Shown here: piece by piece, positions 1,982 to 60,425 of the stretch | Position numbering within the stretch: the first letter of the stretch is position 1 | How the letters are laid out: each line of letters opens with the position of its first letter | Origin: Nitrospira sp. | GTDB lineage: Bacteria > Nitrospirota > Nitrospiria > Nitrospirales > Nitrospiraceae | Direction: 5' to 3' | NCBI GenBank assembly: GCA_005116955.1 | Contig: SWDI01000005.1 | Location: 369,063 to 433,062 of the forward strand | DNA length: 64,000 bases | Notes under the pieces: generated by a model | What the model was told of the DNA's origin: nothing | Databases searched by the model: none | Seen by the model: only the letters and a program-made list of their open reading frames with translations | Position numbers and translations under genes: made by a program

Positions 1982-2001
1982 ACCTGGCGTGTCCGCCAGG
2001 T
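1982..2001. promoter_or_regulatory. lux box palindrome
   Basis: This 20-bp palindrome has perfect 8-bp arms (ACCTGGCG / CGCCAGGT) around a 4-bp centre. It has the same ACCTG-N10-CAGGT frame as the Vibrio fischeri lux box. It lies between the synthase gene (start 1885, reverse) and the divergent sensor kinase (start 2092, forward), so it could control either or both. A partial direct copy (CACCTGACGT) lies just to its left. Confidence 0.8.
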
Positions 2002-2091: not shown

Positions 2092-2892
2092 GTGACACAA
2101 GGCAAGACCAGTTTTCAATTGTTGGACGGTGGGCTTCCATCAACATCCACATTGTCAACGGCTCGGTCGGTACGACCACCGACGGACTCTCTCGACCTCT
2201 ACGGATTGAAGCCTTGCGAAGGCGAGTTAACAACCGCCTTCAAAGCGACGGAAAGCCGGTTGAGCAAACTTCTCGAAGATCGGAGCCGTATCGGGCGAGA
2301 TCTGCATGATTCCGTGCTGCAATCGCTGTATGCCATTGGGTTGAACATTGAAGCGGCTCGGCGGGGCCGGAACGACCAGACGGTCCAACGAAAAGAAACT
2401 GACGACCGGATGATCCTCCAGATCAATCAACTGATTCATGAGGTCCGTGGCATGATCCGAGAGTTAGAGTCGGGGAGCGTTCAAGAGTTTGACTTGTCAT
2501 CGGAGCTCTCCGCGTTATGCACGACCTACGAGCAAGCGGGGCGGTTATCCGTCAAGCTGGAGCTCCAACGTAGCGCCATCGAGGTGCTGACGCACGAGGA
2601 AGAGCGCGAAATCCTGAATATCGTGCGTGAAGCCCTCAGCAATTGCGCGCGGCACGCCGCCGCAACCCGTGCGGCCATCTCGATCCGCATGCGAGACGCG
2701 AGAGTTCGGGTGAGCATCCATGACAATGGCATCGGATTTTCAGCGGCTGGGCAGCCGCGAGGATATGGGCTTGCCAACATGGAGGCTCGAGCAAAGCGAC
2801 TCGGTGGGGCCTTACGGATTCAGTCTAAGGCAGGAGCAGGGACGCACGTCATTGCAGAATTTTCTTTGGAACCTGAGTTGACATCCATATGA
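2092..2892 (+). CDS. NarX-type sensor histidine kinase
   Basis: This is a cytoplasmic histidine kinase of the HisKA_3/NarL-partner class, 266 residues. The dimerisation/phosphoacceptor motif GRDLHDSVLQ places the His near residue 72. The ATPase domain has the N box (EALSNCARHA, about 181), the G1 box DNGIGF (about 212) and a GYGLANM box. No transmembrane or PAS domain is seen, so the input is the first 50 residues or a partner protein. The GTG start at 2092 follows AAGGAGGG by 7 nt; an ATG at 2020 would add 24 residues. The stop overlaps the regulator start by 4 bp, indicating translational coupling. The lux box just upstream suggests quorum control. Confidence 0.93.
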   Translation: MTQGKTSFQLLDGGLPSTSTLSTARSVRPPTDSLDLYGLKPCEGELTTAFKATESRLSKLLEDRSRIGRDLHDSVLQSLYAIGLNIEAARRGRNDQTVQRKETDDRMILQINQLIHEVRGMIRELESGSVQEFDLSSELSALCTTYEQAGRLSVKLELQRSAIEVLTHEEEREILNIVREALSNCARHAAATRAAISIRMRDARVRVSIHDNGIGFSAAGQPRGYGLANMEARAKRLGGALRIQSKAGAGTHVIAEFSLEPELTSI

Positions 2893-3569
2893 AACCATCA
2901 TTGACCAGCATCGTTCTTATTGACGACCATGAGATGGTCCGTCGAGGCTTACGTGCGCTGCTTCACCTTGAACCGGATATGACAATCGTCGCAGAGGCCG
3001 GGACTGTGGCGGACGGTGTCGCAGCCGTTGAGCGTCTCGCCCCTCACATGGTGTTACTCGACGTAAAACTTCCGGACGCCTCGCTGACCGAAGCCTGTCG
3101 ACGGCTTCTGGCTGTTGCACCAAAGCTTCGGATCCTCGTCCTCACCAGTTATGCCGAAGATTCTACGGTGATGGCTGCCGTCCAAAACGGAGCCCACGGC
3201 TACGTACTCAAGGATATTCGAATGGATGAGTTGATTCGTGCCATTCGTACCGTTGCCAGCGGCCAGGGGTATCTCGACCCGCGAGTCACCCAGCAAGCCC
3301 TGCGTTGGATTCGGACCAGTTCACACCTTGGAACGACGTCCCATGGAACCTCTCGACTCTCCCCGCAAGAGCGCTTGATCCTGCCGCTTCTGGCTGAGGG
3401 AAAAACAAATAAAGAGATCGCTGTCCATCTCCGTTTGAGCGACAAAACGGTGAAAAACTACCTGGCCAATATCTTTGACAAGCTTCAAGTCAAGCGTCGG
3501 ACAGAAGCCGTGGCCTGGTTCATGAAGGAAACCCAGGTACCCGGTGGTGCAAGAAGTCAAGGTTTCTAG
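2889..3569 (+). CDS. NarL-type response regulator
   Basis: This is the cognate partner of the kinase immediately upstream, 226 residues. The receiver domain has the acidic pair in LIDDHE, the phosphoacceptor Asp near 58 (MVLLDV), a Thr in LVLTSY and the Lys in YVLKDI. A LuxR/NarL HTH follows at about 155-216 (LSPQERLILPLL...KTVKNYLANIF). The sequence closely resembles the regulator at 6438, so the two may be paralogues. The stop codon falls inside the left end of the repeat element that follows, so the last residues may have been set by that insertion. Confidence 0.94.
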   Translation: MKPSLTSIVLIDDHEMVRRGLRALLHLEPDMTIVAEAGTVADGVAAVERLAPHMVLLDVKLPDASLTEACRRLLAVAPKLRILVLTSYAEDSTVMAAVQNGAHGYVLKDIRMDELIRAIRTVASGQGYLDPRVTQQALRWIRTSSHLGTTSHGTSRLSPQERLILPLLAEGKTNKEIAVHLRLSDKTVKNYLANIFDKLQVKRRTEAVAWFMKETQVPGGARSQGF

Positions 3570-4030: not shown

Positions 4031-6445
4031 ATGAGTACGCCGCTGGATACCGATTGTTCACTATCCACCGAACTTGTCGATCTCCGCCGACATGTTCGTG
4101 AATTGCAGCAGGCATTGGCTCAGGCAGAACAAGACCATGTCTCGGCGCAGACATCAGCACTTGGGGCTGCCCAGATAGGCACATGGGAGTGGGACAGCCA
4201 TACCAATCGTGTCATATGGTCATTGGAAACCGAGCAAATTTTTGGCATCCCTTCTGATTGCTTTGATGGCACGTATGAGAAGTTCTTCGCACTCGTTCAT
4301 CCAGATGACCGTCAGCGCTTAGGCACTGCTATTGCGAAGGCCGTCGAAGACCGGGCCCTCTACCGAGTCGAACATCGAATCATCACACCGGAGGGCGCCA
4401 TCCTGTGGGTCGCGTGCCGCGGCCGAGCCGTGTTCAAGCAGAACGAACCGGTGACAGGCATGGCCGGCACCATTGAGGACATTACCGCGCGTAAAGAGCT
4501 GGAACTGGCCCAGCAAGACTTTCAAGAAACACTCGAGAGACAAGTCCGCGAACGCACGACGACGCTGGAACAAGCCATTACCGACCTCGAGCAAGAAGCC
4601 GAGCGGAGGCACGGTGTTGAATCCGCGCTCAAGGCGAGCGAGCAGCGCTACCAGTCGTTGTATGAACAGAATCCCTTCATGTACTTCACCCTTACCGCTG
4701 AGGGTACGGTGTTGTCCGTCAATCAGTTTGGGGCTGATCAACTTGGGTATCAGAAGGAAGACCTCGTTGGTCGTTCGATCCTGAACGTGTTTGACACGAA
4801 GGATCACCAGACCGTGCTGACACAGCTCAAGGCCTCTGTAGCCAGTCCATACACGCTGTTTCAGTGGGAGATTCAAAAAACCAGAAAAGACGGGACGAGA
4901 CTATGGGTCAGGGAACGAGCACGGGCCATTTACGATCTCGCCAGGCAACCCCTCGTTCTCATCTCCTGTGAAGACATCACGGAACGCCGCGACGCGGAAG
5001 ACCGGCTTCGGGACAATGAGACACGCTGGATCGCTGGCGAGTTAGACCGGCAGGAATCCGAGCGGGCGCTGCGCGCGTCCGAATTGAAGTTCAGGACATT
5101 CGTTGAAACGACCCGCGACTGGGTTTGGGAAGTCAACGAACATGCCGTCTACACTTATGCCAGCCCGCGTATTCGAGAAATTCTGGGCTATGAACCGGAA
5201 GACGTGATCGGGAAAACCCCGTTCGCCTTGATGCCGCCGGACGAAGCCCTCCGAGTCGCCGGCTTGTTCGGCCCTATTGCGGCGACTCGACGCCCCTTCA
5301 CGCTGCTTGAAAACACGAATCGCCACAAGAATGGACATCTCGTTGTGCTTGAAACCAGCGGCACGCCCATCTTCGACAGCGCCGGAACTTTTCGCGGCTA
5401 TCACGGAATCGATCGGGATATTTCGGCCCGTAAACGCGCCGAGGAAGCCCTACGTGCAGGCGAGTTGCGGCTTCAGCGATTCGTGGCTGAAGCTCCGGTC
5501 GGACTCTGCATCCTTGATGAGAACTGGCGCGCGATCAGCGCGAACAAAGCCATGAGCGAGATCACAGGGTATGCAGAACATGAAATCGTGGGCAGCACCT
5601 ATGCCCTCTACACACACCCGGAAGATCTTGCGGCCAATATCATGTTGACGGATGAGTTTTTCCGCGGGGTTCGATCGGAATACACCTACGAAAAACGGTA
5701 CATTCGTAAGTCCGGTGAAATTATTTGGGTCTCCGTCAAAGCCACCCGAATCGAGTTATCGGGCCATGCTGGGCCACTTCTCCTGGCGGCGGTTCAGGAT
5801 ATTACCGAGCGCAAACTCGCGATGGAAGAACGTGAGCAGTTGAGCCGGGACCTGCACGACAATATTTTGCAAGCCCTCTACGCAGTCGGCATGCAACTGG
5901 AAGCCGGCAAGTTGTCGATGGGGAAATCGCCTCGGAAGTCGAAACTCCATATGGCGCAAGCCGTAAACCAGCTCAACGCACTGATGCTTGATATCCGGCG
6001 ATTCATTACCTCGTTGACCCGGCGTACGACGACGCAATTGGATTTTGGACCAGCCCTGCGACAGCTCGTCATATTGATGTCCGGGGCAAATCAGGCCCCG
6101 CCTGAACTGGAGATCGTAAACCCGGTGCTGTCCTTCATCACACCTACGCTGGGAGAACAGTTGCTGAACATTGTACGAGAAGCCCTCAGCAATAGTACCC
6201 GCCATGCGCAGGCATCCCATCGCTGGATTCGACTCAGCCTGGTGGAAAATGTCGTCCAGTTGATCGTCGGTGATAATGGGGTCGGATTTTCGACTGTGCG
6301 CAAACGTCGAGCCGGTCATGGATTGCGCAACATGGCAGCCCGAGCCAAGCAGATCTCCGCCATCTTTACGCTCAAGAGCGCACCGGGGGAAGGAACCCGC
6401 GTGATGGTCGACATTCCACTGAAGAAGGAACACCTCTATGAATAA
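4031..6445 (+). CDS. Multi-PAS sensor histidine kinase, NarX type
   Basis: This large soluble sensor has 804 residues. Four PAS domains are visible at about 45-155, 208-320, 349-465 and 473-595, the first two joined by a charged coiled coil at about 160-200. They are followed by HisKA_3 (SRDLHDNILQ, His near 609) and an ATPase domain with EALSNSTRHA, DNGVGF and GHGLRNM. No membrane segments are seen, so the PAS domains probably sense an intracellular ligand, redox state or gas; none has an obvious heme or flavin signature. ATG 4031 was chosen, although no strong ribosome binding site precedes it. The gene overlaps the next response regulator by 8 bp and is clearly paired with it. Confidence 0.93.
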   Translation: MSTPLDTDCSLSTELVDLRRHVRELQQALAQAEQDHVSAQTSALGAAQIGTWEWDSHTNRVIWSLETEQIFGIPSDCFDGTYEKFFALVHPDDRQRLGTAIAKAVEDRALYRVEHRIITPEGAILWVACRGRAVFKQNEPVTGMAGTIEDITARKELELAQQDFQETLERQVRERTTTLEQAITDLEQEAERRHGVESALKASEQRYQSLYEQNPFMYFTLTAEGTVLSVNQFGADQLGYQKEDLVGRSILNVFDTKDHQTVLTQLKASVASPYTLFQWEIQKTRKDGTRLWVRERARAIYDLARQPLVLISCEDITERRDAEDRLRDNETRWIAGELDRQESERALRASELKFRTFVETTRDWVWEVNEHAVYTYASPRIREILGYEPEDVIGKTPFALMPPDEALRVAGLFGPIAATRRPFTLLENTNRHKNGHLVVLETSGTPIFDSAGTFRGYHGIDRDISARKRAEEALRAGELRLQRFVAEAPVGLCILDENWRAISANKAMSEITGYAEHEIVGSTYALYTHPEDLAANIMLTDEFFRGVRSEYTYEKRYIRKSGEIIWVSVKATRIELSGHAGPLLLAAVQDITERKLAMEEREQLSRDLHDNILQALYAVGMQLEAGKLSMGKSPRKSKLHMAQAVNQLNALMLDIRRFITSLTRRTTTQLDFGPALRQLVILMSGANQAPPELEIVNPVLSFITPTLGEQLLNIVREALSNSTRHAQASHRWIRLSLVENVVQLIVGDNGVGFSTVRKRRAGHGLRNMAARAKQISAIFTLKSAPGEGTRVMVDIPLKKEHLYE

Positions 6446-7121
6446 GTCTAAACCAATTCGGCTGGTCATTGTGGACGATCATGAAGTCGTACGTATCGGG
6501 CTCTGTGCGGTCCTCAATTTGACGCCTGGCATGAAGGTGGTAGGTCAAGGTGGGCAGATGGAGGAGGCGAAGACACTCTGTGCTCGTCTAAAACCGGACG
6601 TCGTCTTACTCGATATTCGACTGCCGGACGGCAGTGGGGTCGATGCCGCTCGTGAGATTCTTGCCAAATGTCCCAAGACACGCGTGTTGTTTTTGACGAG
6701 TTTCGCCGACGACCATACGGTCCTAGAGGCTATTCTGTCCGGTGCCCAAGGATACATTCTTAAAGATATCGCATCCGAGGCGTTGGTTCGTGCCATTCGA
6801 ACCGTCTACGCTGGCCAGCCCGTCATTGATCCCCGCTTGACCAAACACACCATGGAGTGGCTCAAGCACGTCTACACAGAGCCAGGCCAATCCAAACGAC
6901 CACTCCTGTCACCGCAAGAACAACGTCTCCTTCCCTTGGTGGCAAAAGGCCTCACCAACAAAGAAATCGCCATCGACCTCAGCTTGAGTGAAAAAACCGT
7001 CAAGAACTATCTCGCGAATATCTATTCAAAGCTGAACATCGGGCGCCGATCCCAGATTGCCGCCTTCTATGCCGGGAGCTTTAAGGGCTCGGAGGTGCGT
7101 TTACCCATGGCGACTCGCTGA
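6438..7121 (+). CDS. NarL-type response regulator
   Basis: This 227-residue partner of the multi-PAS kinase has a complete receiver domain: DDHE acidic pair, phosphoacceptor Asp near 59 (VVLLDI), Thr in LFLTSF and Lys in YILKDI. The C-terminal LuxR/NarL HTH (LSPQEQRLLPLV...KTVKNYLANIY) belongs to the same subfamily as the regulators at 2889 and 14848. Its start lies inside the end of the kinase gene, so translation is probably coupled. Targets are unknown. Confidence 0.94.
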   Translation: MNKSKPIRLVIVDDHEVVRIGLCAVLNLTPGMKVVGQGGQMEEAKTLCARLKPDVVLLDIRLPDGSGVDAAREILAKCPKTRVLFLTSFADDHTVLEAILSGAQGYILKDIASEALVRAIRTVYAGQPVIDPRLTKHTMEWLKHVYTEPGQSKRPLLSPQEQRLLPLVAKGLTNKEIAIDLSLSEKTVKNYLANIYSKLNIGRRSQIAAFYAGSFKGSEVRLPMATR

Positions 7122-59642: not shown

Positions 59643-60425
59643 ATGGGACAGGCTTTTGATCCTCCTTGGTCAACCGACCTGTCGCTTCCAACAGGTGCCT
59701 CAGTGAACCTTTCCACTGCTATCCCCGCTCTGGCTCTGGATATGCTCTCTCCGCACGGAGAAGCCGTTCGAGTCTTTTCGGATCCAGTTCCCTATCTTCA
59801 TGCATGGGAGCTTCAGTCTCGCTTGCACGAGGAGCGGGTCCGTAATCAGGTACCGGACACCGTCCTGATCCTTGAACATCGCCCTGTGTATACCTTGGGG
59901 CGAAGTACCACCGCATCGCACTGGGGCGGCAATGCCGCGCTCTTATGTGAACACGGAACGGAACTCCACCATGTCAATCGCGGGGGGTCCATTACGTTTC
60001 ACGGCCCAGGACAGATTGTGATCTACCCCGTGCTCAAGCTTGATCGGCATGCCACGGGTCCAAGGCAATTGGTCTGGTTACTCGAAGAAATCATCGTTCA
60101 ATTGCTGAGCCGCTGGAATATCACCGGCCACCGCATCCCCGGCAAGCCCGGCATTTGGGTCATGACTCCAACCCCTGAAAAAATTGCTTTCGTCGGCATC
60201 CGCATCGAGCGCGGTGTGACGCTCCATGGGTGTGCACTCAACGTGGATCTTGACGTGACACCGTTCCATCGAATCCATCCCTGTGGGTTGTCGGACTGCC
60301 GAATCATATCCATGGCAGCAGCGTGCCAAAAGGCGATCTCGCTCGATCTCGTTAAACAGGAACTTGCTCGGCTCTGTCGCATGATGCTCAAACTCCATGG
60401 GCCTGCAGGACTCGATACAGACTGA
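59643..60425 (+). CDS. lipB: Octanoyltransferase LipB
   Basis: LipB transfers octanoate from ACP to lipoyl domains, the first step of protein lipoylation. The 260-residue protein has the family motif RGGSITFHGPGQ near 113-125, the Lys in EKIAFVGIRI near 180 and the catalytic Cys in HPCGLSD near 215. The N-terminus has about 35 extra residues; an inner start is possible. The gdhA start follows by 33 bp, so the two may share a transcript. No lipA lies in the window. Confidence 0.93.
   Translation: MGQAFDPPWSTDLSLPTGASVNLSTAIPALALDMLSPHGEAVRVFSDPVPYLHAWELQSRLHEERVRNQVPDTVLILEHRPVYTLGRSTTASHWGGNAALLCEHGTELHHVNRGGSITFHGPGQIVIYPVLKLDRHATGPRQLVWLLEEIIVQLLSRWNITGHRIPGKPGIWVMTPTPEKIAFVGIRIERGVTLHGCALNVDLDVTPFHRIHPCGLSDCRIISMAAACQKAISLDLVKQELARLCRMMLKLHGPAGLDTD

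Follow-up and report, generated by a model that had tools for sequence, protein, structure and literature searches.

The lux box of Vibrio fischeri is a 20-bp palindrome with an ACCTG-N10-CAGGT frame, centred near -42.5. In Nitrospira, key nitrifiers of soils and wastewater, the targets of quorum sensing are largely open, and the distribution of LuxI and LuxR in the Nitrospirales has been described (PMC12342949, PMC5767232). The closest described system is that of a sludge Nitrospira (Tan et al. 2021, PMC8553950), in which ACCTGGCGGTTCCGCCAGGT is located between nspI and a divergent gene called GGDEF/EAL. The nspI synthase made mainly C8-HSL, and NspR1 together with C8-HSL induced reporters 196.6-fold on the divergent side and 14-fold on the nspI side; in EMSA, NspR1 bound to this site in the presence of RNA polymerase (PMC8553950).

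The site described here lies in a stretch of 64,000 nucleotides of a Nitrospira genome, the whole of which was analysed (the window), and it belongs to this known Nitrospira lux-box type. The present analysis adds a conserved two-component operon as the target on the other side of the box, and a link between box and kinase that is kept in some lineages without the synthase. Neither this conserved target nor the pocket-less LuxR described below seems to have been reported before; no report of either was found in the open-access literature searched. The features of the locus are as follows.

134 to 1069, + strand: gene for a LuxR-type receptor with Autoind_bind and GerE domains (Pfam); closest solved relatives CviR, RhlR, LasR and TraR.
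1100 to 1885, - strand: luxI-type AHL synthase gene (Pfam PF00765, E 1.9e-17; LasI and EsaI in PDB).
1954 to 1963, - strand: ATGGAACCAT, conserved element where the -10 of the luxI promoter is predicted, not resembling TATAAT (box-centred profile).
1978 to 1981, - strand: GACG, extending the box towards luxI (CGTC on the + strand), conserved in the family at G 100%, A 95%, C 95% and G 80% (box-centred profile).
1982 to 2001, no strand: very probable LuxR-type operator (lux box), common to two divergent promoters; exact match, single strong genomic copy, 92/93 informative loci.
2023 to 2028, + strand: TACAAA, -10-like hexamer of the putative kinase promoter, 31.5-36.5 bp from the box centre.
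2092 to 2892, + strand: gene, divergent from luxI, for a short HisKA_3 histidine kinase in which no sensor domain is recognised (Pfam; Shine-Dalgarno 2077-2084).
2889 to 3569, + strand: gene for a NarL-type response regulator, with a 4-bp overlap with the kinase gene (Pfam Response_reg and GerE).
4031 to 6445, + strand: gene for a multi-PAS histidine kinase, the commonly conserved next neighbour (Pfam, synteny).
6438 to 7121, + strand: gene for a second NarL-type response regulator (Pfam, synteny).

The luxI product carries an Autoind_synth domain scoring 63.9 bits (Pfam cut-off 24) and aligns with LasI and EsaI. Its start is probably the ATG at 1885, preceded by AAAGGAG at 1893-1899. The luxR product shares with receptors of the CviR, LasR and TraR type both the autoinducer-binding and GerE domains and the aligned pocket residues W, Y, D-P, W and G; these are remote homologues. 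The kinase reading frame is open from an ATG at 2020, and the likely start is not this codon but the GTG at 2092 behind AAGGAGGG at 2077-2084. The predicted kinase of 266-290 aa is of the two-component HisKA_3 type, with an H-box, HATPase_c and an adjacent response regulator, and HisKA_3 and HATPase are its only domains. The first-pass annotation had called it NarX-like, a description that suits the kinase core, which resembles that of NarX/NarQ (NarX is among the best NCBIfam domain matches), but not the whole protein, which is short, has neither the NarX sensor domain nor any other recognised one, and scores 100 bits, far below the family cut-off of 578.

The palindrome, ACCTGGCGTGTCCGCCAGGT, is found exactly at 1982-2001 as had been annotated, with perfect 8-bp arms around a 4-nt spacer and an exact match to the 20-bp ACCTG-N10-CAGGT frame. 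It lies between the luxI-like and kinase genes, also as annotated, and the probable starts of both are now refined to ATG 1885 and GTG 2092. Distances from the box centre at 1991.5 are 106 bp to the luxI start and ~100 bp to the likely kinase start. Palindrome length, frame and spacing to the -10 are like those of the V. fischeri lux box, whereas the inner arm bases, GCG/CGC here, are different; in V. fischeri luxR is the divergent gene, while here that gene is the first of a two-component operon and luxR is not beside the box. The resemblance to Nspbox1/Nspbox2 (PMC8553950) is closer. The same 16 arm bases, ACCTGGCG....CGCCAGGT, occupy the same place in the gap between the AHL synthase gene and a divergent gene, and a cognate LuxR is found in both. 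However, 2 of the 4 spacer bases differ, the divergent gene is annotated as GGDEF/EAL there and here encodes a HisKA_3 kinase, with a response regulator gene behind it, and the distances from box to genes are 81 and 125 bp there and about 96 bp (luxI) and 90 bp (kinase), counted from box edge to start codon, here.

Perfect arms are by themselves unremarkable: five perfect 8+4+8 palindromes are present in the window against 1.25 expected from shuffles, which is what might be said for reading this one as a terminator, as the site of another regulator (a NarL-type protein, for example) or as chance. The ACCTG-N10-CAGGT frame is rarer, with two occurrences against 0.08 in shuffles, and the full set of 16 arm bases occurs once in the whole 3.65-Mb genome. 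The second match to the frame in the window, ACCTGTCGCTTCCAACAGGT at 59677-59696, is inside the start of a lipB-like ORF, differs from the family box at three positions and was set aside as probably chance. No T run follows the palindrome at 1982-2001, its arms equal those of a LuxR site proven by experiment, and box presence tracks luxI across the 175 genomes of the family that were surveyed. In addition, kinase paralogues distant from luxI have no box (L181, L182 and L184). A terminator, foreign site or chance repeat is thus hardly credible, and the palindrome is very probably a LuxR-type operator, for which conservation is the decisive evidence.

A LuxI relative is encoded in 93 of the 175 genomes, and the 94 loci around luxI matches were oriented as in the window and scanned for the box. 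The exact form ACCTGNCGNNNNCGNCAGGT was found in 84 of the 175 genomes, comprising 81 of the 93 with luxI versus 3 of the 82 without it. Allowing up to 2 mismatches, a box separates luxI from its neighbour in 92 of the 93 loci that extend far enough upstream of luxI. The box is therefore conserved along with luxI and luxR, and the gene order luxR-luxI-box-kinase-response regulator is general across the family. The first-pass annotation had named absence of the palindrome from relatives that keep the gene pair as the outcome that would tell against it; the box is kept in essentially all relatives having the pair. In the lone exception (L138, genome G066), luxI is retained, the box, short kinase and regulator have been lost, and the PAS kinase now adjoins luxI.

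Among 18 nonredundant representatives, the divergent neighbour is a kinase with HisKA_3 and HATPase domains in 16, one of these being the PAS kinase of L138. The other two have a response regulator (L076) and a kinase-like protein that no longer gives a match (L149), and a GGDEF/EAL neighbour was seen in none of the 18. In one locus (L079, G076) kinase and response regulator are fused in a single open frame of 498 aa. A further bin, G088, contains two luxI loci (L064 and L096) with one box each, and may be a mixed bin (6% contamination).

The first-pass annotation had also suggested dual control, that is, of the two-component system as well as of luxI. The simplest alternative is that the box serves luxI autoinduction alone and that the kinase gene is merely adjacent, with an unrelated promoter of its own. 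Many lux boxes do serve a single promoter, and adjacency proves nothing. However, 17 loci in which the genes are widely separated have two boxes, the first at 103-143 bp from luxI and the second mostly about 100 bp from the kinase. Two further loci (L104 and L108) have a box near the kinase only.

The boxes dedicated to one promoter, 17 for luxI and 25 for the kinase, show how each side is maintained. The promoter-distal half was changed in 18 of these 42 boxes and the proximal half in 2, compared with 8 changed halves of 144 in shared boxes; these counts are not independent of descent, and counted by clade there are 11 distal versus 2 proximal changes in dedicated boxes. From this pattern of decay, a shared box resembles two proximal halves placed back to back. 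The series of shared boxes, split boxes and boxes kept without the signal traces the evolution of a bidirectional operator, and from it one can predict the half-site on which each promoter depends. That kinase-side boxes keep the kinase-proximal half is not expected if only luxI were served.

The kinase side also has a fixed promoter geometry. Of 74 nonredundant loci, 98.6% have the dinucleotide TA starting at +31.5 or +32.5 bp relative to the box centre, against a mean per position of 5.9%. The position corresponds to the -10 of a promoter in which the box would be centred near -43, and in the window it is occupied by TACAAA; the distance is that of a class II arrangement, with the box upstream of the -10. 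This fixed spacing, the box retained before the kinase in genomes without luxI (see below), and the stronger induction of the divergent promoter in the published reporter on a homologous site (PMC8553950) all argue against a box for luxI alone, which we consider very unlikely.

On the luxI side, a conserved element lies at a similar distance from the box. Its consensus in the box-centred profile is aTGgaAacat, relative to which the register in the window is off by one base, and it includes no canonical -10. The luxI promoter is less clearly read for lack of a TATAAT-like -10, and the transcription start predicted there is tentative. A perfect 9-bp inverted repeat, ATGGAACCA/TGGTTCCAT, was also noted at 1924-1963 of the window in the luxI promoter and leader region, with one arm overlapping the conserved element. 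It was considered as part of the switch and rejected; one arm precedes the predicted luxI transcription start, and the repeat does not look general in the box-centred sequences.

The missing TATAAT-like -10 might instead be taken to mean that the box controls mainly the kinase operon, with luxI repressed or weakly tuned and little positive feedback; the two loci with a kinase box only, and the box retained where luxI is gone, also fit such a view. However, the nspI promoter was induced 14-fold from a near-identical box (PMC8553950), and the luxI-proximal half is intact in 16 of the 17 dedicated luxI boxes, so that control of the kinase operon in the main is improbable, to about the same degree as a box for luxI alone. 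Autoinduction of luxI is not universal, since in L104 and L108 the only box is near the kinase, and L138 keeps luxI but lacks both box and short kinase.

Dual control of luxI and the two-component operon is well supported by the split boxes, the half-site decay, the fixed kinase-side -10 and the box kept without luxI, and a near-identical box works both ways in another Nitrospira (PMC8553950). The preferred reading, to which we assign a probability of about 0.87, is that the LuxR encoded at 134-1069 has this box as its operator and, with AHL, would activate both luxI and the two-component operon from one site. AHL made by LuxI would accumulate until LuxR binds the single site at 1982-2001 and recruits RNA polymerase both ways, as expected from a symmetric box ~43 bp upstream of the predicted transcription starts on both sides. 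These starts are predicted near 2034-2035 on the + strand and near 1948-1949 on the - strand. In one direction this would raise luxI expression (autoinduction), and in the other it would switch on the kinase and response regulator pair (2092-3569), perhaps along with the PAS kinase and regulator pair that follows. The two-component operon would then set the downstream response. By analogy, LuxR binding and AHL-dependent activation in both directions can be expected from their demonstration in the published relative (PMC8553950).

Further targets in this genome were sought with a consensus scan. Weaker matches to the box number 24 genome-wide, compared with 25 for a reversed control pattern, and sites with 2-3 mismatches are no commoner than the control. 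Among strong direct targets, this genome thus seems to have only the two-component operon, a statement that rests on a consensus scan and leaves room for weaker sites that could function. With one strong site in the genome, quorum sensing here seems to be routed mainly via the two-component operon. With a two-component system as the single conserved target, the question of what quorum sensing controls becomes testable by way of what the kinase and regulator pair controls.

Five genomes with no luxI match (G070, G074, G119, G102 and G090) retain, immediately upstream of the kinase (L175-L179), a box with 1-2 mismatches such as CCCTGGCGCATGCGCCAGGT. All five boxes differ at their first base, and four have an intact kinase-proximal half. 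The adjoining luxR gene codes for a shorter protein in these genomes, and the three that were scanned have GerE and no Autoind_bind. Alignment of all five derivatives reveals an internal deletion of the pocket (W, Y, D-P, W and G), with the N-terminal helix region and the DNA-binding domain kept; an example is encoded at L176:3079-3633. This pocket-less type is present once in each of the five genomes and in none of the genomes with luxI. In a tree of the response regulators, the five do not form one clade, though their LuxR derivatives are alike, and several losses or some transfer are possible. In another genome, G140, an exact box is before the kinase and there is no luxI within 4.7 kb beyond the box. 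A LuxR search in six genomes gave no match, and as it was run without a positive control this is not counted as absence.

A broader proposal, which we would accept at even odds, is that quorum sensing in these relatives has essentially one direct target, the two-component operon, through which cell density would be relayed by phosphorylation. In some lineages, the synthase and the LuxR pocket would then have been lost and the box and DNA-binding domain kept, leaving a signal-independent regulator of the same operon.

Additional exact boxes distant from luxI were seen in a few relatives, at L166:3994 and L167:3999 (G137) and at L169:4003 (G120). A second exact box in G008 (L168:4054-4073; C2:41853-41872) is at the upstream end of apparent methionine-salvage genes, identified by eye from their ORFs as mtnB/mtnD/mtnC-like. 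Methylthioadenosine is a by-product of LuxI, and quorum control of methionine salvage would therefore make sense.
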